From Burkholderiaceae bacterium (GTDB taxonomy: Bacteria > Pseudomonadota > Gammaproteobacteria > Burkholderiales > Burkholderiaceae_C), in NCBI GenBank assembly GCA_004322085.1, contig SCRR01000259.1, positions 1 through 35,495 on the forward strand: a stretch of DNA of 35,495 bases, given 5' to 3'. Under the pieces are notes generated by a model, which saw only the letters and a program-made list of their open reading frames with translations, was not told the origin of the DNA and ran no database searches. Below are positions 3,193-15,748 of the stretch, piece by piece (position 1 is the stretch's first letter; each line of letters starts with the position of its first letter). Both the position numbers and the translations under genes were made by a program.

Positions 3193-5952
3193 ATGAATCT
3201 ACTAAGAAGCCTTTTCGTTTCGTTTTTGAAGACCCGGCACACCCTGCGCCACTTTCGGCGCCTGATGATTCTCGATTCTCTGTCTGGCCCGGGCATCACG
3301 CGTGGCGTGCCGGAGGATCTGGCGCGCGAGTTGATGCAGGCCTCCGCGGACGATGCGGCGGGCGTGCTGGTGCGGCTGCACTCGCATGACGGCGGTCTGG
3401 CCCAATCCGAGGTTGACCTCATTGCCGAGCGGGTCGGGCCGAACGAGGTGGAACACGAGAAGCCCTTGCGCTGGTGGCAGCATCTCTGGCACTGCTATAG
3501 AAATCCGTTCAACCTGCTGCTCACGGTACTGGCCGCAATATCTTATTTCACCGACGACGACAAGGGCGCCATCGTGATTGGCCTCATGGTGGTGCTGTCC
3601 ACCCTGATTCGCTTTGTGCAGGAGGGGCGTTCCAGCCGCGCGGCCGAACGTCTCAAGGAGATGGTGAGCAACACGGCCACGGTGATCCGGCGCGACCTGG
3701 CCACCGACGTGGTGCAGGTGGCGCAGCGTTATTTTGAGCTGCCACTGCCCGTGCGCGTGCCGACCCGTATTGAAGTGCCGATCAGGGACCTGGTGCCGGG
3801 TGAACTGGTGGTGCTGTCGGCCGGTGACATGATCCCCGCAGACTGCCGCGTGCTGCAGGCCAAGGACCTGTTCGTGAGCCAGGCCGCGATGACAGGCGAG
3901 TCCTTGCCGGTCGAGAAATTTCCCGAGCATCGCGGGGCCGCATCGCACAATCCGCTGGAGATGAACAACCTGTTGTTCATGGGCACCAACGTGGTGTCGG
4001 GGTCCGCCACGGCGGTGGTGGTCACCACCGGCAACCGCACCTATTTTGGCGTGCTGGCCACGCGCGTCACGGCCACCGACCGTACGCCCACATCATTCGA
4101 GACCGGCGTGAACAGCGTGAGTTGGTTGTTGATCCGGTTCGCGCTCGTGATGGTGCCCGTCGTGCTGCTGATCAATGGCTTCACCAAGGACGACTGGACC
4201 GAGGCCTTCCTGTTTGCGCTGTCCGTGGCGGTGGGGCTGACGCCCGAAATGCTGCCGATGATCGTGACCTCGACGCTGGCCAAAGGCGCGGTGATCCTGT
4301 CGCGCAAGAAGGTGATCGTGAAAAGGCTGGATGCGATCCAGAACTTCGGCGCCATGAACGTCCTCTGTACCGACAAGACCGGCACGCTGACGCAGGACAA
4401 GATTTTCCTGGAGCGCCACACCGACGTATTCGGCCAGGACTCGGATGACGTGCTCAAGTACGCCTACCTCAACAGCTATTACCAGACCGGCCTGAAAAAC
4501 CTGCTGGACCGCGCCGTTCTCGATCGTGCGGGCCTGAAGGCCGAGCTCAAGCTGGCGCAGGACTACCAGAAGGTGGACGAGATCCCGTTCGACTTCGAGC
4601 GCCGGCGCATGTCGGTCGTGGTGTCCGAGAAGAGCCACCATCACGAGCTCATCTGCAAGGGCGCGGTCGAGGAGATCCTGACGACCTGCACCCAGGTACA
4701 GGTGGACGGCCAGGTTCTGGCGCTCGATGCCGCCATGCTGGAGCGCGTGCGCAGCGTCACTTCGGAGTTGAACGAGCAGGGCCTGCGCGTGGTGGCGGTG
4801 GCCATGAAAGAGGTCCCGCCCGACAAGTCGACCTACGCGATTGCCGACGAGGCGGAACTTACGTTGGTGGGCTACATCGCCTTCCTGGACCCGCCCAAGG
4901 AGTCGACCGCGCCTGCGCTGCGCGCTTTGGCCGAACATGGCGTGACGGTCAAGGTGCTGACGGGCGACAACGAACTGGTCACGGCCAAGATCTGCCGCGA
5001 GGTGGGGCTGCCGCTCGAGCGCGTGGTCCTGGGGCAGCAGCTCGATGCGCTGGACGATGCCGCGCTGTCCGCGCTGGTGGAGCGCTACAACGTTTTTGCC
5101 AAGCTCACTCCGCTGAACAAGGAGCGCATCGTGCGTGCGCTGCGCGCCAACGGCCACGTGGTCGGCTTCATGGGTGACGGTATCAACGACGCGCCGGCGC
5201 TGCGCGCGGCCGACATCGGCATCTCGGTGGACAGCGCGGTGGACATCGCGAAGGAGGCGGCCGACATCATCCTGCTCGAAAAGAGTCTGATGGTGCTGGA
5301 GGAGGGTGTGCTGGAGGGGCGCAAGACCTTCAGCAACATGCTCAAGTACATCCGCATGACGGCCAGCTCCAACTTCGGCAACGTGTTCTCGGTGCTGATC
5401 GCCAGCGCCTTCCTGCCGTTCCTGCCGATGCTGCCGCTGCAGCTGCTGGTGCAGAACCTGCTGTACGACATTTCGCAGATTGCGATCCCGTTCGACAACG
5501 TGGACGAAGAGTTGATCAGGATGCCCTTGAAGTGGAATCCCGCGGATATCGGCCGCTTCATGGTGTTCTTCGGCCCGACCAGTTCCGTTTTCGATATCGT
5601 CACGTTTTGTCTCATGTGGTATGTGTTCAAGGCCAATACGGTGCAGGATCAGGCATTGTTCCAGTCAGGCTGGTTCATTGTCGGCCTGATCACGCAGACG
5701 CTGATCGTGCACATGATCCGCACGCCCAAGCTGCCCTTCATCCAGAGCCGGGCGGCTTGGCCCTTGACGGCCATGACGCTGTTCATCATGGCGCTGGGCG
5801 TGTTCCTGCCCATGGGTCCGCTGGCCGGTTCCTTCAAGCTGGTGCCGCTGCCGCTGCTGTACTTCCCGTTCATGGTCGCCATCGTTCTGGCCTACATGCT
5901 GCTCACGCAGGCCATGAAGAAGTTCTATGTGCGGTGGTTTGGGTGGCAGTGA
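3193..5952 (+). CDS. mgtA: Magnesium-translocating P-type ATPase (MgtA/MgtB type)
   Basis: DKTGTLT phosphorylation motif, TGES, KVLTGDN, MGDGINDAPAL; C-terminus YFPFMVAIVLAYMLLTQAMKKFYVRWFGWQ. Start at 3193 (MNLLRSLF). Confidence 0.93.
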   Translation: MNLLRSLFVSFLKTRHTLRHFRRLMILDSLSGPGITRGVPEDLARELMQASADDAAGVLVRLHSHDGGLAQSEVDLIAERVGPNEVEHEKPLRWWQHLWHCYRNPFNLLLTVLAAISYFTDDDKGAIVIGLMVVLSTLIRFVQEGRSSRAAERLKEMVSNTATVIRRDLATDVVQVAQRYFELPLPVRVPTRIEVPIRDLVPGELVVLSAGDMIPADCRVLQAKDLFVSQAAMTGESLPVEKFPEHRGAASHNPLEMNNLLFMGTNVVSGSATAVVVTTGNRTYFGVLATRVTATDRTPTSFETGVNSVSWLLIRFALVMVPVVLLINGFTKDDWTEAFLFALSVAVGLTPEMLPMIVTSTLAKGAVILSRKKVIVKRLDAIQNFGAMNVLCTDKTGTLTQDKIFLERHTDVFGQDSDDVLKYAYLNSYYQTGLKNLLDRAVLDRAGLKAELKLAQDYQKVDEIPFDFERRRMSVVVSEKSHHHELICKGAVEEILTTCTQVQVDGQVLALDAAMLERVRSVTSELNEQGLRVVAVAMKEVPPDKSTYAIADEAELTLVGYIAFLDPPKESTAPALRALAEHGVTVKVLTGDNELVTAKICREVGLPLERVVLGQQLDALDDAALSALVERYNVFAKLTPLNKERIVRALRANGHVVGFMGDGINDAPALRAADIGISVDSAVDIAKEAADIILLEKSLMVLEEGVLEGRKTFSNMLKYIRMTASSNFGNVFSVLIASAFLPFLPMLPLQLLVQNLLYDISQIAIPFDNVDEELIRMPLKWNPADIGRFMVFFGPTSSVFDIVTFCLMWYVFKANTVQDQALFQSGWFIVGLITQTLIVHMIRTPKLPFIQSRAAWPLTAMTLFIMALGVFLPMGPLAGSFKLVPLPLLYFPFMVAIVLAYMLLTQAMKKFYVRWFGWQ

Positions 5953-6022
5953 GGCCGCGGGTGGGTATTCGACGGCGCAATGTGATCGATGCGCTTGAAA
6001 CGCAGGTGTGTGTCCAGTGCCG

Positions 6023-6778
6023 TCACCACGGAATTGGCCCGTTCTCGTCCGAGAAGGTGCCTGTGGGTCCATCCGGGCCAAGCAGCGCAAGCCGGACAGG
6101 CTCGCGTGCAGCCTCTTCTATCGTGAGCCGGCCTTCGAAGTTGTTCATGGCCGTCACCGTGAAGCCGGGCGCCGCCGCGTTGACCTTGATGCCAGTCGAC
6201 TCAAGGTCCAGCGCGAAGGCGACCGTCACGGCGTTGAGCGCCACCTTTGACGCGGAGTAGGTCACGCCGAACATTTCACGGCGTCGCTGCTCGCTCGGGT
6301 CCGAGGCCAGCGTCAGTGAAGCCCTGCCGCTCGACACATTGACGATGCGCGCAGCCGCCGCTGCGCGCAGCAGCGGCAACATGGCCTGGGTGACGGCGAT
6401 CACCCCGAACACATTGGTTTCGAAAACCGCGCGCACCTCGTCAAGCGAGGCGACGCTGGCGCGTCCTGCCTTGACCGTATCCGCGAGCGACCGACCCGGC
6501 GGGCTGGCATGCGCGATGCCGGCGTTGTTCACCAAGACATCGAGGCGACCGAATTCATGGCGTACGCGCTTTGCCGCTGCTTCGATAGACGCCCGATTGG
6601 TTACATCCAGCTGGATGGCGTGAGCGTCACCGTCGATGCTCCTGGCCGCCGCCTCGCCGTTCGCAAGCTTGCGCGACCCGACGAGCACGGTGAAGCCTTG
6701 CTTTGCAAGGTCTTTCGCGATCTGCAGGCCGATTCCCTGATTGGCCCCGGTCACTAAAGCGATGGGTTTCTTTTGCAT
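6023..6778 (-). CDS. SDR family NAD(P)-dependent oxidoreductase
   Basis: ALVTGANQGIGLQIAKDLAKQG, VNNAGIAH, YSASKVALN motifs. Confidence 0.92.
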   Translation of the reverse strand: MQKKPIALVTGANQGIGLQIAKDLAKQGFTVLVGSRKLANGEAAARSIDGDAHAIQLDVTNRASIEAAAKRVRHEFGRLDVLVNNAGIAHASPPGRSLADTVKAGRASVASLDEVRAVFETNVFGVIAVTQAMLPLLRAAAAARIVNVSSGRASLTLASDPSEQRRREMFGVTYSASKVALNAVTVAFALDLESTGIKVNAAAPGFTVTAMNNFEGRLTIEEAAREPVRLALLGPDGPTGTFSDENGPIPW

Positions 6779-6854
6779 AGTTCTGTTCCGGGTTGTGGGC
6801 GATCAGCTGGCTAGGCAGCCTCGCCACGGGTGCAATGATGGGTTGGGCTGCACG

Positions 6855-7166
6855 CTACGACGCGTGCTCGACGGGCTGGGCCGTGAGTCGCACGCCCAGT
6901 GCGCGTGCGACTTTGAACACGGTATCGAAGCGCGGCTTCGCCCCTGGAGCCAGTGCCTTGTACAGGCTCTCGCGACCGAGACCGGCATCCTTCGCTACTT
7001 GAGCCATGCCTCGGGCCCGCGCAACATCGCCGAGAGCAAGGAGCAAGAGATCGGGGTCCTCGGCTTCCAGCACGGCGTTCATGTACTCCGAGACAGCCTC
7101 ATCGTCGGTCAGATACTTCGCCGCATCGAAGGGCACAAGCCTGGATTGGGGTTTCACTTTGTTCAT
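6855..7166 (-). CDS. HigA-like addiction-module antitoxin (HTH)
   Basis: MNKVKPQSRLVPFDAAKYLTDDEAVSEYMNAVLEAEDPDLLLLALGDVARARGMAQVAKDAGLGRESLYKAL matches the antidote family paired with RelE/HigB-type killers. Confidence 0.85.
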   Translation of the reverse strand: MNKVKPQSRLVPFDAAKYLTDDEAVSEYMNAVLEAEDPDLLLLALGDVARARGMAQVAKDAGLGRESLYKALAPGAKPRFDTVFKVARALGVRLTAQPVEHAS

Positions 7167-7336
7167 AATTCAGACTCCAGTTCGTTCAGGATCTGCTGCG
7201 TGCGCTTGATGTCTTTAGTTTGGGTCGACTTGTCACCGCCATTGAGCAAGACGATCGAGATGCGGACCGGAGCCTTCTTGTCTTGCATACCATCGAGCCA
7301 AGCTTCGAACTCTGCGGCGAGTTGGACGGCGAACAC
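7163..7336 (-). pseudogene. RelE/HigB-type toxin remnant, internally deleted
   Basis: Frame ending at TGA 7163-7165 (overlaps the antitoxin ATG) reads VFAVQLAAEFEAWLDGMQDKKAPVRI-SIVLLNGGDKSTQTKDIKRTQQILNELESEL: N- and C-terminal family motifs joined with about 45 residues missing. Confidence 0.7.
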
Positions 7337-7345
7337 GCAATCATT

Positions 7346-7361
7346 GTATCCATTTGGATAC
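7346..7361. promoter_or_regulatory. Palindrome upstream of the TA operon, candidate autoregulatory operator
   Basis: GTATCCATTTGGATAC: 7-bp perfect arms with 2-nt spacer, just upstream of the toxin frame. Confidence 0.5.
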
Positions 7362-7448
7362 CGACGTCAAGCGGCTCGGCTCTGCCGGTGTGTGGCCCAA
7401 CGCATGAATTGAGCAGCGGTTGAAAGCCGTCTTCTCGGATGATGGAAT

Positions 7449-7557
7449 GGACTGCCGCTCGCCTACTTTCCGTACCTGGTCGCGATCATCGTCGGCTACA
7501 TGCTGCTGACGCAGGCGATGAAGACGTTCTATGTGCAGCGGTTTGGGTGGCAGTGAG
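7449..7557 (+). pseudogene. Orphan 3' end of a second mgtA-type ATPase gene
   Basis: Translates PLAYFPYLVAIIVGYMLLTQAMKTFYVQRFGWQ*, about 24/33 identical to the C-terminus of the intact ATPase ending at 5952. Confidence 0.88.
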
Positions 7558-7584
7558 GGGCGGGCGGATGTTGCGCCCGGTTTT

Positions 7585-7645
7585 ATGAGCAAAATCGCGT
7601 TGGAGTCGTTGATTGGCGCCTGCGGTGTGCTATAAAAAACACAGT
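7585..7645. repeat. Copy of a dispersed ~60-bp repeat (also at 18259-18319 and 19803-19863)
   Basis: TGAGCAAAATCGCGTTGGAGTCGTTGATTGGCGCC... aligns with the reverse complement of the dnaE2-internal copy. Confidence 0.45.
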
Positions 7646-7695
7646 AACATGCGTCTGCGCGCCACTGGTCACTCCCGGTCCGCAGCGTTTCGCAG

Positions 7696-7752
7696 GGCTG
7701 ACTGAATTGCGCCGCGCCGCGAAGCGGCGTCAGCCCGAATGAATTTTCCAAC
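7696..7752 (-). repeat. attC-like integron recombination site (degenerate cores)
   Basis: Minus strand GTTGGAAAATTCATTCGGGCTGACGCCGCTTCGCGGCGCGGCGCAATTCAGTCAGCC shares the 21-nt core GACGCCGCTTCGCGGCGCGGC and overall layout with the aadA-class attC (recalled); overlaps the stop of the upstream gene. Confidence 0.55.
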
Positions 7753-8467
7753 CCAGCAACTTTGCCTTTTGCGCCGCAAATTCCGCGCCCGTCAGGATGC
7801 CTCTGTCCCTAAGCTCAGCCAGCTTGCGAAGCTCATCCGATAGATTCTGCTTATCCTCTTGCGACGCAACATGGCTGGACGCGTCGTCCCTGTTGGCGCG
7901 CTTTATAACGCCGTCCAGGCGTGCCTGCCATTTTTTTGCCTGTTCAGACGAGTTTTTATAGAGAAGCCCATTCCGTTTTGATTTGACTGAAAGAAAGAAA
8001 ATCTCATGGATCGGCTGAACGGAATCATTGAGAACAAGACGAAGGCCAATTTTGCTGACTTTGCCAGACTCCACCTTTTTCGCGGACATTCCTCCGACAA
8101 ACGCGCCCACGTTCCCCAGCAGCATGCCTCCAACCAAAGCGCGAACAGCCAGACTGGAGCGTGAAGTTTTGACCATCGTCTGTCCGTCCTCAAACAATTC
8201 ACAACTCAGAACGTCACGGTAATCAAAGACTCGGTGCGTAAGTGTTTTGCTTTCGCGCTTGAACAAGCACACCTTTGACCGCGTCTCGTCAACTGCTATG
8301 CCGTTGCCCCCATCAGCGCCAAGATATTGAAAGCTCGCCGAAAACCTTGGAATATTTGAAATGGCAGTGCCAAGCTCTTTCAGCCCGCTTGACGTGTGGA
8401 TGACCGATGCAACGCCGATTGCAACAACTGCAACGGCGAAAATGATCAAGATCGCCCAGAAACTCAT
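7730..8467 (-). CDS. Membrane-anchored SHOCT-domain protein
   Basis: N-terminal TM segment MSFWAILIIFAVAVVAIGVASVI, Gly-rich GGMLLGNVGAFVGGM, C-terminal SHOCT motif LRKLAELRDRGILTGAEFAAQKAKLLG. Confidence 0.75.
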   Translation of the reverse strand: MSFWAILIIFAVAVVAIGVASVIHTSSGLKELGTAISNIPRFSASFQYLGADGGNGIAVDETRSKVCLFKRESKTLTHRVFDYRDVLSCELFEDGQTMVKTSRSSLAVRALVGGMLLGNVGAFVGGMSAKKVESGKVSKIGLRLVLNDSVQPIHEIFFLSVKSKRNGLLYKNSSEQAKKWQARLDGVIKRANRDDASSHVASQEDKQNLSDELRKLAELRDRGILTGAEFAAQKAKLLGWKIHSG

Positions 8468-8527
8468 GCCGTCCCTTTGATCTCGTAAATGCTCAGCATT
8501 TCCATCAAGAAGCTTGACGTTTGGAAT

Positions 8528-9247
8528 TCAGTGGCCGTCCAAGGTAGTCCGCTGAAGCGCGGTGGTTTGGGCCACACGCGACAACTTGCCGAGTGCGGCC
8601 TCCCAAACGGAGAGACAACGCGCTCGGTCGTGCCCCCAAGCACGGTACTGACCATAGCGACTAGCTTCGACGGAATTGAGGTTTACGCGAAAGTAGTTGG
8701 TCCGGATCTCGCTCATTGGAAGGACGAAAAACGAACACAGCGACAGGAAATCTTCTTCGTGTGGCAAGGCATCAACCCTTGCGGGGATCCTCGCCTCATG
8801 AAGAGTGGTTAGGAGATCATGCAAGTGTTCCCAGTAGCGTTCGTTTTCCAACCCCAGTGTTGTGATGCCAATTGCTATAAGTACGCCGTACGATTTAGGT
8901 TTCTTGGCTGGCGTGGTACTCAGATTCACGAATGCCCAGTTTTCCTTCGACTCTCCTTTGTAGCGGTTGGCGATATTGATCCTCGCGCATTTGACCTCAT
9001 AGCTGACCGCGCCTATTTTTGTCTCTACGAAACCGTCGGCTGGATCGTGAACCGCTCCGCCTTCGATAGCGTACTTTCGCGCTGCGTCTCCATAGCGGCC
9101 GAGTGGCGTGGAAACATCGGAGGATTGATATCCTACGCGATTTACCAGAAAGTTTTTTGCAATAAGCTTTCCGAGAAGGTCGCCATCAATATAGCGCGAG
9201 TACTCAGCGATTGAATTTGGCGCTTGCGGATCAAGAAATCCAGTCAT
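8528..9247 (-). CDS. Hypothetical protein with PD-(D/E)XK nuclease-like motif
   Basis: GRYGDAARKYAIEGGAVHDPADGFVETKIGAVSYEVKCARIN: D...ExK arrangement; same strand as and 60 bp upstream of the SHOCT gene. Confidence 0.55.
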   Translation of the reverse strand: MTGFLDPQAPNSIAEYSRYIDGDLLGKLIAKNFLVNRVGYQSSDVSTPLGRYGDAARKYAIEGGAVHDPADGFVETKIGAVSYEVKCARINIANRYKGESKENWAFVNLSTTPAKKPKSYGVLIAIGITTLGLENERYWEHLHDLLTTLHEARIPARVDALPHEEDFLSLCSFFVLPMSEIRTNYFRVNLNSVEASRYGQYRAWGHDRARCLSVWEAALGKLSRVAQTTALQRTTLDGH

Positions 9248-9250
9248 AGG

Positions 9251-9370
9251 TTCTAACGGAGTTAGGCGGTGGTCTTCTGATCGCTATCGTGAGCAAGGAT
9301 TATCTAGGCGTGGAGATCGAGCAAACACCAGCCTGATAAGCCGCCGCATTGCATCTTCACGATGTCAGAC
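9251..9370 (-). repeat. Candidate long attC-like site
   Basis: Minus strand: GTCTGAC...GCAATGCGGCGG...ACCACCGCCTAACTCCGTTAGAA; GTTAGAA lies 3 nt before the ATG of the 9247 gene. Arms are imperfect. Confidence 0.35.
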
Positions 9371-9572
9371 CCAAACACCATGACCACGGCAACGCCGCGA
9401 TCTTGGGACCGTAAAAGCATCTTGGCCATTTGAATAGTCACTCGCACTCGATTCATTATTGACTCAGGATGGATAGTTGCTCGTCATGGCTATTCCTCCA
9501 ACTGCTGAACAATTCCGCAGTCGTCCGCTTTGAGGCGCTGCGCCGTCTGTGCGCCGGCGAATGAATGAGAAA

Positions 9573-10457
9573 TCAAGCGTACGATTTTGGATCGATGCAC
9601 CAGATGAAAGACTGCGCATCAATCATGTCGCGTGGTTTTAGGCCGATGCGCTGCAATTCGTCAAAGAGGTGTTGGGCCATCCTCTCAGCCCGCGCCAAGG
9701 TGTTCCAGTTTAGCGCGCTGTCGTACTGGAGGTCCCAGCCGCAGGCTTGCGCAGCGAACTTCGTAACTTCCGGCTTGATGAATATCCGGGACTCCGGATG
9801 CATCAGAAATCCGTAGTAGGTAGCAATCGTCCATTTGCTGCAGCCCTCTGCCGCACCCAACGCATCGGCAAGTATTGCAAATCCAGCCATCCGACTGTCG
9901 GTTCCGAACAAGTCATTGAAAAAGGCATCTGCCAGCCCTTTTTGCAGCCGTGCATCTTTCAAGGCTGCATGCCATTTTATCTTCTCAAATGAGTGAAGGA
10001 GATTTGTCTTCGATTCGATTCTGGCGAGTCGCAAGCAGATTTCCGCGTGGTTGCCCGCATCGGCGAGTGACCTCCACTCCGATTCGCCCAATACCTCCTT
10101 GACGTAGGTGCTCGCGACGAGCTTATATTGTCGCTCGCCACCATCGAGGCCAGGTGAGAGATAGGTTGGATCGTCAAAGCCTTGTGGGAACAGCTTGAGA
10201 AAATATTGAATGCAATCCGGCAAGGGTAAAAACCTCGACGAATCATGTAGCATTGCCGACGCAAGATTCAAGAGCAGAGGATGTGCATGCATCGGGGCCG
10301 GAGCGGCTTCCAGCAATGCCGCCGGTTGGGAGAGTGTTTTTCGGCCAGCGTTCACAAAGAAAACATCAACTTCCTGCGAGTTGGCATGCAAGACCTTGCC
10401 AACACCCCACTCCGGCTTGTTCTTGTGAACGACGCGATCTTCAATTTTCCAGTTCAT
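9573..10457 (-). CDS. DUF3553-like N-terminal domain protein of unknown function
   Basis: N-terminus RVVHKNKPEWGVGKVLHANSQEVDVFFVNAGRKTL resembles DUF3553; remainder unrecognised. Confidence 0.6.
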   Translation of the reverse strand: MNWKIEDRVVHKNKPEWGVGKVLHANSQEVDVFFVNAGRKTLSQPAALLEAAPAPMHAHPLLLNLASAMLHDSSRFLPLPDCIQYFLKLFPQGFDDPTYLSPGLDGGERQYKLVASTYVKEVLGESEWRSLADAGNHAEICLRLARIESKTNLLHSFEKIKWHAALKDARLQKGLADAFFNDLFGTDSRMAGFAILADALGAAEGCSKWTIATYYGFLMHPESRIFIKPEVTKFAAQACGWDLQYDSALNWNTLARAERMAQHLFDELQRIGLKPRDMIDAQSFIWCIDPKSYA

Positions 10458-10592
10458 CGTCTGCGCTCCCTTGCCTCCGATTGATTTTTAGCCTCGGCTT
10501 GCTGACCATTGCTATCGGCATTTAAGTAGCGCCACTGTGCCAGATTTTCAGAGAAGCGTTTTCCACCCAGCCGGTCTATGAGACACCCTGTG

Positions 10593-11804
10593 TCAACCCC
10601 CCGCTGTTTTGAGCAAGGCTTGATAGGCGCCATGACGAGCCGGGTCGTAGGGCGTGCGCTCGGTCCATGCACGCCAGATGACACGCACCCAGGCGCGGCA
10701 CAGGATGCGCACGGCGTGCGGATGGTCGCAGCCGCGAGCTCGCGCCCTGGCGTAGACATCGGCGGCCCAGGCGCTGGCGTGGCGCGAGTTGTCGGCCAGG
10801 CAGGTCAAGGCCGCGCGCAGCCGGTGGTTGCAGGCCCATCGGAAGGCCACGGCCTGGGACTTGCCCGAGGCGTAGGTGACAGGGGCCACACCGGCCTCGG
10901 CGGCCAGTTGCGCGTCGCTATCGAAACGTTCACGTGACCTGCCCAGCTCGGCCAGGATCTGCGCGGCGCAGATGCGCCCGGCACGCGGGAAGCTCATCAG
11001 AATGCGGCCGTCGTCACTGCTGGCCACGTGGTGCTCGATGCGCGCCGACAGCAGTCTGATCTGCTCGACCAGCCGTGCCAGCGTGCGCACCAGGCAGCGC
11101 ACCAGCTCGCCCTTGGCGTCCATCTCCAGCTCGCCATTGACCGGCGCAGGCGCCTCGTGCAGGCGCGTCAGCAACTCCTCGGGCGAACGCCGACCGCAGT
11201 AGGCGTGCTGGGCACAGAAGGCGGCCATGCGCTTGGGCCCCAGCCGGGCTGCACTCTCCGGGCTGGGATAGCGCTCGATGAAGGCCAGCGCTATGGGCGA
11301 GTCCACATCGGCGAAGACGGCTACGGCACCCGGCCAGAATGCCTGCAGCAGGCTGCGCAGCTGGTTGGCCAGTTGCACGCGCGTGGCCACCAGATCGTCG
11401 CGCCCGCGCACCAGCGCACGCAAGGCGCGGATCTCATCGCCCTGGGGCTTGAGCGGCTTGAAGCGGTGGCCATCGGTGCGCAGCAGATCGGCCAGCAGAT
11501 AGGCGTCGCTGGCATCGCTCTTGGCGCCGTGGCTGCGGTAGCGCGGGCGCGTGGCCTTGACCGCGTTGGGGTGGATCGGCACGACCGTAATGCCGGCTTC
11601 CACCAGGGTATCGACCACCAGCCCCGAAGGCCGCTCGATGGCCACCGGCGGCATACCCCAAGCCTTCAGGCGACGCAGCAGCTCGGTCAGGCCGGCGGCG
11701 CTGTGTGCCACCTCCAGGCGTTCGCGCACGCCGCCCTGCGCATCGATGACGCACACCGCGTGCGTCTGGCTGGCCCAATCGAGCCCGGCGAAGAAAGTAT
11801 TCAT
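10593..11804 (-). CDS. IS110-family transposase (DEDD N-terminal, Tnp_20 C-terminal type)
   Basis: MNTFFAGLDWASQTHAVCVIDAQG, KSDASDAYLLADLLRTDGHRF, SFPRAGRICAAQILAELG, EAGVAPVTYASGKSQAVAFRWACNHRLRAAL. Confidence 0.94.
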   Translation of the reverse strand: MNTFFAGLDWASQTHAVCVIDAQGGVRERLEVAHSAAGLTELLRRLKAWGMPPVAIERPSGLVVDTLVEAGITVVPIHPNAVKATRPRYRSHGAKSDASDAYLLADLLRTDGHRFKPLKPQGDEIRALRALVRGRDDLVATRVQLANQLRSLLQAFWPGAVAVFADVDSPIALAFIERYPSPESAARLGPKRMAAFCAQHAYCGRRSPEELLTRLHEAPAPVNGELEMDAKGELVRCLVRTLARLVEQIRLLSARIEHHVASSDDGRILMSFPRAGRICAAQILAELGRSRERFDSDAQLAAEAGVAPVTYASGKSQAVAFRWACNHRLRAALTCLADNSRHASAWAADVYARARARGCDHPHAVRILCRAWVRVIWRAWTERTPYDPARHGAYQALLKTAGG

Positions 11805-11811
11805 GGACAGT

Positions 11812-12060
11812 CTCCTTGCATTTGCGGTATGACTTGCCGTGTCGGAAGTCCCTGCGGGTCGCTCACTGATCGGCGCTCCTGGCTGCTGACCTTGGCGCTA
11901 CACCCTGTAGCCCGTCGGGGTCTTCCGGCACCCTGGAGGCTGCGGGTCTCATACGGGCCATCGCGTGGCCAGCGACGCAGGCAGTCACCCCAGGGGCACG
12001 GAAGTCGGATCGAACGCTGTGCCTGCGCAACTCCTTGGGTCAATCAAAAGCCCTGTTTGC
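11812..12060 (-). ncRNA. Candidate IS110 bridge RNA region (5' leader of the transposase)
   Basis: Long GC-rich, apparently non-coding leader immediately upstream of an IS110-group transposase, the position where bridge RNAs are encoded; structure not computed. Confidence 0.4.
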
Positions 12061-12083
12061 AGCATCACCATGGCCCCAAAGAC

Positions 12084-12180
12084 GGGTTGACCACCGGGTG
12101 CTTCGCAGTTGTGGACAACACGCCTTGGGGCGTGAGAGGCGCCCGTCGCGTTGTCCACAACCAAGCCCGGTGGACAACCC
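12084..12180. repeat. Large nested inverted repeat
   Basis: GGGTTGACCACCGGGTGCTTCGCAGTTGTGGACAAC (12084-12119) pairs with GTTGTCCACAACCAAGCCCGGTGGACAACCC (12150-12180); the loop contains ACGCCTTGGGGCGT. Confidence 0.85.
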
Positions 12181-12237
12181 TGCGGCGTGCTTCATCCAAT
12201 GCCTCTATGGGCAGGAGGGTAGGCCAGTGAGCAGCCA

Positions 12238-12864
12238 TCAACTCTTGCTCGGCTGAAACTCCGGAAAGTCCTTGTACAGATCAGCGCGACTGCCCAAGGT
12301 CTGCGCATTGACATCCAGGCGGCCCGTTGGTTTGATATAGCTGTAGATCGCCTTCTTCGGGCGCTCGTGCCAGTTGATGTTGAAGGCCGCCAGCCTTGGA
12401 AAGAACTCAAGTGCGCTATAGGGTAGGTGGTCGTGGATCCAATAGGCCATGGACCGCCAATCCATTCCCAGGCCGTCGGCGTACTGGTCCGAAAACCATG
12501 GCACCACGACACATGCCGTGGCGCCTTTGAAACCGTCGGCATCGACATGGTCCCAGATGTGAGACGCAAAATTCTTTTCATTGGTCGCGCAACTGTCACC
12601 CTTTTCGTTGCCCAGTGCATTGACTGTCGGTGACCTGTAGCCCGAGCGAATTGCCAGACGCCCGAAAGTGGCGTTCAGCGGCTCCAGAAGCTCAGCACAT
12701 AACCGCTTCCCGACCTCTATCGCCAGGTCGGGGGTCTCCGGGATATTCGGGACGCCATAACAATTGCTGATCTCGCTATACAGGAAATCCCGCATGAAGA
12801 AGGAGGGTGACAGGCGAACTCGACCGAGTTCCTCCAGTGCTCGAACACTCCGCGGAGATTTCAT
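12238..12864 (-). CDS. Peptidase M15-like (D,D-peptidase fold) protein
   Basis: RLAIRSGYRSPTVNALGNEKGDSC...SHIWDHVDADG...FNINWHERPKK: SGYRS, HxxxxxxD and WHE elements. Confidence 0.6.
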   Translation of the reverse strand: MKSPRSVRALEELGRVRLSPSFFMRDFLYSEISNCYGVPNIPETPDLAIEVGKRLCAELLEPLNATFGRLAIRSGYRSPTVNALGNEKGDSCATNEKNFASHIWDHVDADGFKGATACVVVPWFSDQYADGLGMDWRSMAYWIHDHLPYSALEFFPRLAAFNINWHERPKKAIYSYIKPTGRLDVNAQTLGSRADLYKDFPEFQPSKS

Positions 12865-13068
12865 CGCTTCATGATGCCAGACTTCATTGGCGGGTGGAAT
12901 GCTCGAAACTCGCCAGTCCCGATCGGTCGAAACATGTGCATTCGAGGCGCGAGCATCTCAATTTCATTGACATTCCGAGCATTTTGAGCGCACAATAACC
13001 ATGCGCCCGATTTGATATTCAGCTTGCGGTGGCGCGTTAAAAATAACGGCTAAAGTGGGTACTGATGA

Positions 13069-13104
13069 CCCCGTTTTGGCTTGAAGGCTGGAACGGGTTT
13101 TTTT
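13069..13104 (+). terminator. Rho-independent terminator-like hairpin
   Basis: CCCCGTTTTGGCTTGAAGGCTGGAACGGGTTTTTTTGTTTT: CCCGTT/AACGGG stem followed by a U-tract. Confidence 0.75.
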
Positions 13105-13249
13105 GTTTTCGCAGTTCATCGGCCCTGTGGCCGGTCGCCGGTTTAAGCAACAACTTCCGGGGCGACTCACAAATGACCGGTAAAGCGTCGTCTACTCCTC
13201 CCTTGAGTCGGCTGCGTCCTTGGCTCTAAGGGAAACAGGAGGCTGGTGC

Positions 13250-13789
13250 ATGGATCGTCGAAATATGGTGCTCTCGATCGCCGGAGCACGCTTGGGTGCC
13301 GGGCTGCCGATGGCCTGGTTGAATACGTCAAATGCTCATGCTTGGCCGCCCAATTTCCTGCTGGGCCTGCCCTCGGTGGAGGTTCCGGGCGCAACGGAGT
13401 ACCTCATGCGGCCCAACCAGATCCCGCTCGTACTGGAGCAGTTGCAGTGGAACGCTCGGGATGGATCATGGGCTACCCTGATGTTCAGCACGGCCATCTC
13501 GTCGGCCGATACCGATGACTCAATCCTCAATCTCCAGTACTCCGTGGAAGAGGGCATCGCAGGTCTGGATTGGGTCTTGCTCGGGCCGCGCAACATTGCC
13601 GAGCTCGAACAGGTCGCAGCCTTCGCGGCCTCGCGTGGCCATCAAGTGATGGTCCGGACGATGAACAACGTGTCGTACCTTCGCGTGGAGGACGGCGACA
13701 TTGGTGCGCTTGGGCAATCCATCATCGCGCAGTACGGTATCCCCAGCGACAACGATATTGGCCTGCTGGCCAGTGCAGGGGCGTCATGA
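13250..13789 (+). CDS. Hypothetical protein, possible signal peptide
   Basis: AGGAGG-type RBS 5' of ATG 13250; N-terminus MDRRNMVLSIAGARLGAGLPMAWLNTSNAHAWPP looks like a signal sequence. Confidence 0.6.
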   Translation: MDRRNMVLSIAGARLGAGLPMAWLNTSNAHAWPPNFLLGLPSVEVPGATEYLMRPNQIPLVLEQLQWNARDGSWATLMFSTAISSADTDDSILNLQYSVEEGIAGLDWVLLGPRNIAELEQVAAFAASRGHQVMVRTMNNVSYLRVEDGDIGALGQSIIAQYGIPSDNDIGLLASAGAS

Positions 13790-13845
13790 AGACACTGATG
13801 ATCGAGAACGCTTCCGTAAAGGCGGCGCCCGGATGCGCGTGACTA

Positions 13846-14094
13846 TTGGATCAGACATTCACTGATGGGTTATTGATGAGGATGGCGATGAAGAAGCAAG
13901 AAAAATTGGATAACTCCATGGAGGCCGTATTGGCTCGGTTCAACAAGCTCGACGAAAACTGGCCGTATGACGTCAACCTTCCTTTGACCAAAGAACAGGA
14001 GGAAGCCGAGGGTGTGGTGGATCTCACGGATGTCTCTGGCGGCGTCGGACTCATGATCTTGGGAGTCGGTCGGTCCAAAAAACTGCATCCATAG
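13846..14094 (+). CDS. Small hypothetical protein (82 aa, or shorter from an internal Met)
   Basis: Charged body KKQEKLDNSMEAVLARFNKLDENWPYDVNLPLTKEQEEAEG and Gly-rich tail; downstream of the 13250 gene. Confidence 0.45.
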   Translation: MDQTFTDGLLMRMAMKKQEKLDNSMEAVLARFNKLDENWPYDVNLPLTKEQEEAEGVVDLTDVSGGVGLMILGVGRSKKLHP

Positions 14095-14338
14095 TGACTG
14101 TGGCATGCACTACGATAGAAACTTCGCCGGTGACCCCCACATCGACAGACGCCGATAACCCTTCCGGCAGCTTGCCTGCCGCTTGCAACAATTGGCGCGT
14201 CGGTGATGCAGATTCCATGTCGGCACGGGACAAATACGATCCCACCCCAGATGCCGGATATACGATTGCAGGCGCTTCCTCAACAGCCACACTATCGGTC
14301 AATTTCTTGCGCTTGTGGGGGAGTCCATATATGAAATC

Positions 14339-15034
14339 TTAGCTGCCGTACTCCACGAGCAGCGCGGCGTGATCTGTGATTGACGATGTAAGCGGCGTTT
14401 GATCATATCGAATGCTCGAAATGCGCCTATTGATTTCTATTGTTGCAAAGGCGTGATCGATACGAAAGCCGTTGCCGGCGGAGCTGTACCAGGTAAATTC
14501 CTTAATGTCGGGGTTTCTTGATCGCCAACAATCGATGTAGGGCTCACAGGACAGCGCCTCGAATAGCTGCGAGCAGTGGAATGTGGCTCCCACTTCATCT
14601 ACGTAGTGTCGTCCCGTGTTGAAGTCGCCGATAAACAATGCTGTTGGATCCCCGCTCGGAGGCCCTTGAAGCAGGAACTCGAATACCGCAGATTTTGCGC
14701 GCTGTTGTGGGAAATAGACGCCGTACAACGATAAGTTGGTGAAGTGGGCGGATATAACGCGGTGGCCATGTTCTGGCCCCAACTCTGGGTAGGTGCTTGC
14801 AACGAAAGAGGTCCGCGACACAATGCACACGCTGTTTTGGTTGTGTGCAACTGATGCCGCAGCGAAGAACGACAAACCTTCCTGGTTGAGGTGCTCGCGC
14901 AGTAGCTTCGCGTTTTTGTTCTCCCTGAATTCTGACAGCACAACCACATCCGGGTGCCAAGCGCAGATGTACCGCGCGATTGGAAGGATGCGGGTACCAC
15001 CACCATGTCGGATGTTAAGAGAGAGAATCTTCAC
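14339..15034 (-). CDS. Endonuclease/exonuclease/phosphatase (EEP) family protein
   Basis: MKILSLNIRHGGG, VVVLSEFRE, LFIGDFNTG, SITDHAALLVEY motifs; GTG start. Confidence 0.85.
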   Translation of the reverse strand: MKILSLNIRHGGGTRILPIARYICAWHPDVVVLSEFRENKNAKLLREHLNQEGLSFFAAASVAHNQNSVCIVSRTSFVASTYPELGPEHGHRVISAHFTNLSLYGVYFPQQRAKSAVFEFLLQGPPSGDPTALFIGDFNTGRHYVDEVGATFHCSQLFEALSCEPYIDCWRSRNPDIKEFTWYSSAGNGFRIDHAFATIEINRRISSIRYDQTPLTSSITDHAALLVEYGS

Positions 15035-15151
15035 AGGCAGCTAACAAGAATTGGTCGAAGTTGGTTCCGATGGCGCCGGTCGACCAACACGACAACCTGC
15101 GGACTACTGCCGCCAATTGGGCCGCTTTTCTTGGTCCAGCCGCACCCCAAT

Positions 15152-15748
15152 TCACCCCCCCTTCTTCTCCCTCGGCACCCGCCCCATCAGGTAGAACTCG
15201 GGGTTCGGCATCATGTTCGAGAAGCTCGCGATGCGGTTCGAGAGGCCGAAGAACGCGGTGATGGCGGCGATGTCCCAGATGTCCTCGTCGCTGAAGCCGT
15301 GCGCGTGCAGCGGCGCGAAGTCGGATTCGTTCAGTTCTGCCGAGCGCAGGCACACCTTCATCGCGAAGTCGAGCATGGCGTGCTGGCGTTCGCTGATGTC
15401 GGCCTTGCGGTAGTTGGCCGCGACCTGGTCGGTCACGAGCGGCTTCTTTTCGTAGATGCGCAAGAGTGCCCCGTGCGCGACCACGCAGTACAGGCACTGG
15501 TTGGCACTGCTGGTGGCGACCACGATCATCTCGCGGTCGCCCTTGGTCAGGCTGCTCGCGCGGCCCACGCTCTCGGGTTCCATCAGCGCGTCGTGGTACG
15601 CGAAGAACGCGCGCCACTCGGCCGGGCGGCGTGCCAGCGCGAGGAACACGTTGGGGACGAAGCCGGCCTTTTCCTGCACCGCCAGCACTTTGGCGCGGAT
15701 GTCGTCGGGCAGGTCGGCGAGGGTGGGGGCAGGGTAGCGCGTCGTCAT
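15152..15748 (-). CDS. AhpD-like peroxidase-related enzyme (carboxymuconolactone decarboxylase fold)
   Basis: Internal MTTRYPAPTLADLPDDIRAKVLAVQEKAGFVPNVFLALARRP start; SSANQCLYCVVAHGALLR (CxxC...H) motif. Confidence 0.85.
   Translation of the reverse strand: MTTRYPAPTLADLPDDIRAKVLAVQEKAGFVPNVFLALARRPAEWRAFFAYHDALMEPESVGRASSLTKGDREMIVVATSSANQCLYCVVAHGALLRIYEKKPLVTDQVAANYRKADISERQHAMLDFAMKVCLRSAELNESDFAPLHAHGFSDEDIWDIAAITAFFGLSNRIASFSNMMPNPEFYLMGRVPREKKGG

Follow-up and report, generated by a model that had tools for sequence, protein, structure and literature searches.

A probable decayed integron-cassette cluster without an integrase in a genomic island directly 3' of mgtA in a Burkholderiaceae bacterium

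Genes and core motifs of the island beside mgtA

The analysed DNA, hereafter the window, is a 35,495-nt stretch of a Burkholderiaceae bacterium genome (GCA_004322085.1, contig SCRR01000259.1). An island of 9.2 kb (5950..15161) lies in it, with the stop codon of mgtA on one side and the following, convergent gene on the other. In five genomes of the same genus (L072-L076) the mgtA match ended at window positions 5948-5958 and the following match started at 15161-15174, with a short gap between them. Because mgtA directly adjoins position 15161 in these five relatives, the segment 5950-15161 is read as an insertion relative to the genus, loss in all five being less likely. The original prediction would have failed had relatives carried the genes as ancestral residents without junctions; instead the genes were absent and the mgtA|15161 junction was clean, a junction that bounds the whole 9.2-kb island and not single cassettes.

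Most features of concern here are read from the minus strand. A DUF3553-domain gene (10457-9573) is followed by an R'-like core GTTAGAA (9251..9257), the gene of a 239-aa orphan protein with no detectable family (8528..9247, hereafter the 8528 gene), a candidate decayed attC of the form GCCCAAA...GTCAAGC (8512..8572), a small membrane-type gene encoding a SHOCT-domain protein (PF09851, 7730..8467) and a hairpin at the SHOCT stop (7697..7752). Then come a fragment of mgtA in antisense (7567-7452), a degraded attC-like site whose R' GTTGGGC is intact and whose R'' is degenerate (7395..7452), a 57-aa toxin remnant of the HI1419/RelE-ParE type (TIGR02683, 7163..7336), an intact HI1420-type antitoxin (6855..7166; PF21716, 1.2e-37; TIGR02684, 2.1e-35), the motif GCCCAACCCATCATTGCACCCG (6827..6848) and a short-chain dehydrogenase (SDR) gene (6023..6778; PF00106, 7e-45). 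Besides the cassette units, the island holds an IS110 element, a PF03372 gene or remnant and other genes. The IS110-family transposase (10593-11804) is a single genome copy, 61-65% identical to elements of Mesorhizobium and Variovorax, whose IS110 elements are also its nearest plasmid relatives; no second copy in the genome was available to set its ends and so to place it with the attC-targeting IS1111 type. The endonuclease/exonuclease/phosphatase-family gene or remnant (PF03372, 5e-10) occupies the right-hand margin of the island (14339-15034). Neither Rfam nor tRNA scanning gave any match in the window.

The motifs that had suggested gene cassettes were all found in place. The toxin-antitoxin pair is flanked by exact reverse complements, GCCCAAC at plus 7395-7401 (GTTGGGC on the minus strand) and GTTGGGC at plus 6842-6848 (GCCCAAC on the minus strand), the second lying 6 nt past the antitoxin stop (6855). 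GCCTAACTCCGTTAGAA occurs at minus 9267-9251, 3 nt upstream of the ATG of the 8528 gene at 9247, and the SHOCT stop codon (7730-7732) falls inside the hairpin 7697-7752.

The 3' end of mgtA is present twice in direct orientation, as the intact 5848-5964 and as a diverged copy at plus 7452..7567, which are identical at 96 of 117 positions (82%). The second copy starts sharply at 7452, where it borders the attC-like site on the R'' side. It is 75-79% identical to the mgtA ends of relatives; the genome's own mgtA is the best match, and no donor was found. None of the explanations considered here accounts fully for this duplication.

attC scoring within the window

Three scorings were applied. The first covariance model (R1) was built from 15 attCs adjoining intact intI genes of relatives; it returned 131 sites at E<=1 in 20 loci and can be trusted because these sit nearly all next to intI genes. 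With filters off, R1 singled out 7395-7452 in the window (16.6 bits, E=0.013), the next site reaching 7.8 bits. The second model (R2, 84 sites, none of them taken from the window) gave the same site 13.5 bits, with weak matches at 8512-8566, 7697-7752 (9.4 bits), 9251-9267 (9.2 bits over 17 nt only) and 6823-6848; with its 84 sites it did not lift the scores in the window. Five of the 12 R2 matches in the window fell on the minus strand within the 2.4 kb at 6823-9267, where about 0.4 would be expected (binomial ~3e-5). Across 39.8 kb of corresponding DNA in relatives the best R2 score was 9.2 bits, from stem-like matches none of which spanned the outer cores.

The third scoring, a home-made attC scorer with shuffling controls, also ranked 7395-7452 first (26.3), so that this site was the best in the window under all three. 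Its score was reached by one of 120 dinucleotide-shuffled windows, and the best control locus reached 21.3 in 69 kb. When the GTTGGGC core was fixed and the upstream bases were shuffled, none of 3000 sequences attained the score of the site, and the 22-base half-site 6848-6827 was matched by one shuffle in 20,000. Both the 7395 site and the 6848 half-site are far from chance.

The covariance check proposed earlier told in part against the prediction, because single sites score weakly, 7395-7452 being the best at E=0.013. Single-site covariance scores in the window are weak, no full attC is established by score alone, and it is therefore the relatives that decide. No attC was detected for the SDR, DUF3553 and IS110 genes of the island. 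None of the DUF3553 homologues examined had an attC within ~1.5 kb, and the SDR gene had no DNA match in genus relatives.

The 8528 gene had been described as nuclease-like, a label that found no support, for Pfam, NCBIfam, PADLOC and PDB yielded no nuclease match. Apart from itself, the protein had no homologue in Pfam, NCBIfam, PADLOC, plasmids or the 401 family genomes, and none in a scan of the genome collection; its match in PDB was weak (E=0.077). Downstream of the gene, the candidate 8512-8572 scores weakly (R2 11.0 bits, E=1.4) on the correct strand and in the correct intergenic gap. Upstream, the 9251 core is without a complete attC and at background level, 592 of 3000 shuffles scoring equally well. 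That the 8528 gene is a cassette is plausible but unproven, and we infer that it, too, was once one.

Relatives of the toxin-antitoxin and SHOCT units

Homologues of the antitoxin were found in 150 of the 401 family genomes. The closest (L083, genome G128; 90% protein identity) belongs to a locus whose DNA matches the window from 7408 to 6827 at 86-89% identity, a match that starts at the R' core with a few extra bases, spans the gene pair and ends inside the attC. The attC of L083 forms a full hairpin and scores 41.4 bits, and the alignment identifies 6827..6848 as the surviving 5' half (R'' and L'') of the toxin-antitoxin attC, of which the window keeps the first 22 bases and has lost the 3' half. 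The R' of the L083 attC appears to be interrupted by an IS with inverted ends, next to which lies the gene of an IS1111-like transposase; targeting of attC sites by IS1111-type elements has been described (PMC11187229). Positions 174-2300 of this locus (G128, contig C22) hold two HI1419/HI1420-type toxin-antitoxin pairs and the IS1111-like transposase. In L099 (genome G241) the homologue is flanked by attCs scoring 60.3 and 47.6 bits in a stretch of five attCs, and in L090, L093 and L103 an attC was found on at least one side. Many other homologues had no attC within ~1.5 kb. The occurrence of the gene with an R' core and its own attC in other genomes shows, at the level of sequence homology, that the toxin-antitoxin unit is cassette-derived.

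The proposal that this pair is a cassette was borne out by the G128 and G241 homologues with their attCs, with the reservation that the toxin is internally deleted. Compared with the intact 100-aa L083 toxin, the window toxin has an in-frame internal deletion of 129 nt and lacks 43 residues; it scores 36.8 bits against TIGR02683, below the cut-off of 62.85, and the intact toxin scores 113 bits. Of the HI1419/HI1420 module the antitoxin is complete and the toxin keeps only its ends. The toxin is presumed dead; with its toxin internally deleted and below the family cut-off, the unit has probably lost its function as an addiction module. The complete antitoxin could at most neutralise related toxins. 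The unit resembles the HI1419/HI1420-type cassettes of G128 and G241 in families, gene order and cassette boundaries, and differs from them by the deleted toxin and the truncated attC.

A full-length relative of the SHOCT protein was met only once in the 401 family genomes, in Simplicispira (44-45% identical; L113/L133). A GTDB scan also gave one relative, in Simplicispira lacusdiani, which appears to be the same one. This homologue is preceded by GTTGGGC, 18 nt ahead of the ATG, and followed just past its stop by an attC of 36-44 bits; with a single attC in 6.7 kb, it appears to be a lone cassette. In the window, the upstream core of the SHOCT unit was not preserved. The hairpin at its stop matched attCs of plasmid aadA cassettes (88.6% over 44 nt, E=2e-6); aligned with the attCs of aadA6 and fosE, it proves to have an intact central stem and to have lost only the outer cores, R'' and R'. 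It thus shares the central 44 nt with the aadA6/fosE-type attCs of class 1 integron cassettes (88.6% with aadA6) and differs from them in its ruined cores and its other cargo gene. A terminator or a chance hairpin at this position was ruled out by the aadA attC match. Judged by these homologies, the SHOCT unit, too, is shown to be cassette-derived.

Origin of the cluster and integron remnants elsewhere in the genome

The region is very probably a decayed cluster of integron cassettes on the minus strand, without an integrase, in the island directly 3' of mgtA. The homology comparisons are decisive for the cassette origin, and they sustain the earlier claim that several island genes arrived as cassettes for the toxin-antitoxin and SHOCT units, the 8528 gene staying unproven. 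A cluster of attC sites lacking an integron-integrase is termed CALIN in IntegronFinder 2.0 (PMC9024848). The region agrees with a CALIN in its several cassette units of the same orientation, its attC remnants (one site at E=0.013 with R1, one by homology to aadA/fosE and one half-site by homology to L083) and the lack of an integron-integrase nearby, contig C38 encoding no tyrosine recombinase. Unlike a typical CALIN, its attCs are mostly weak-scoring, and two are halves or core-ruined; default tools would probably miss the region or call it only partly for this reason. A complete integron, with intI, attI and promoter beside the array, is not present, since no intI lies in the window.

While the units were active, IntI would have moved each of them as a circle between folded attC sites; their source would have been the integron beside rarA in this genome or an integron of a relative. 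Since then most outer attC cores have been destroyed by mutation and deletion, which also took out a stretch of the toxin gene and truncated the attC that follows the antitoxin. IntI needs the outer attC cores, and as these are damaged or cut here, the attC sites of the window are probably inactive.

One point counts against a plain array: in the unit bounded by the SHOCT and 7395 attCs, the place of an ordinary cassette gene is taken by the reversed mgtA fragment. It is possible, if less probable than a common array, that only the toxin-antitoxin and SHOCT units are cassette-derived and that they arrived separately, by off-target (attG-type) insertion under an IntI encoded elsewhere or by other recombination, and never formed one array. 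The 8528 gene without a provable attC, the solitary look of the Simplicispira SHOCT cassette and the mgtA fragment standing between the two units are in keeping with separate arrivals, and off-target insertion has been proposed, along with intI loss and rearrangement, as a route to CALINs (PMC8618304). However, all sites lie on one strand in one succession, and the 7395 site resembles the attC of a preceding unit and not a bare GTT target.

A rather unlikely order of events is that recombination at the mgtA 3' end brought in the SDR-toxin-antitoxin segment (5965-7451) after the SHOCT-side units and left the repeats 5848-5964 and 7452-7567. Their same orientation, 82% identity and sharp edge at 7452 would fit such an entry, but a divergence of 18% is high for a recent crossover and neither intermediate was seen in any relative. 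Late entry is a question of the sequence of events and does not conflict with a decayed cassette cluster. It is highly improbable that the reversed mgtA fragment was captured as cassette cargo and then, through homologous recombination, helped to bring cassettes next to the chromosomal mgtA; if this were true, excised cassette circles could integrate without attI, attC or attG. An ordinary island built by illegitimate recombination and IS activity, with chance 7-mers and a terminator hairpin, would suit the weak single-site scores, the IS110 element and the gene remnants, but it is scarcely tenable given the boundary agreement with L083, the attC-flanked homologues and the aadA attC match at E=2e-6.

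For the decayed cassette cluster, the rest of the genome gives a context. The absence of intI from the window had been noted correctly, and no intact intI was found in this genome, a draft ~90% complete. The genome search did return a 47-residue C-terminal intI remnant on contig C346 (14568-14792), followed by rarA (read from its translation), with attCs upstream at 13898-13966 and 12686-12752 scoring 34.7 and 38.6 bits. Positions 11000-15041 of this contig (L027) represent a chromosomal integron in decay, bordered by lolA-side genes and by rarA; remnants of intI also occupy this rarA position in the sister genome G006. Contig C401 has two decayed attCs one after the other, and C163 has one. 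A genome-wide attC search scored 150 of 2706 candidates and missed the site at C346:13898. The C401 locus (L068, 4110-5133) has two decayed cassettes, one a 209-aa gene and the other a small lipoprotein, with an aminotransferase gene on one side and an SDR gene on the other; the attC-like site of C163 (L067, 9737-9805) scores 31.1 bits with R2 and lies near a transposase gene. In view of the intI remnants by rarA and the scattered decayed attCs, the genus appears once to have possessed a chromosomal integron, since defunct.

A decayed cassette cluster of this sort is a known kind of genomic fossil. Chromosomal integrons that have decayed, their intI inactivated, have been described in Xanthomonas, together with CALINs located apart from the intI locus (PMC12444791). 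The present genome is similar in that intI is broken at a fixed locus, in this case next to rarA, and that cassette clusters lie elsewhere, and it differs in belonging to the family of Simplicispira, in its far fewer and more decayed cassettes and in their position beside mgtA.

The region shows that chromosomal cassette DNA persists near or below the level where single-site attC scoring convinces, so surveys of cassettes outside integrons may undercount old ones; intact cassettes in relatives can prove the origin of such fossils. With its intI remnant and its scattered attCs, the genome documents the end of a chromosomal integron.
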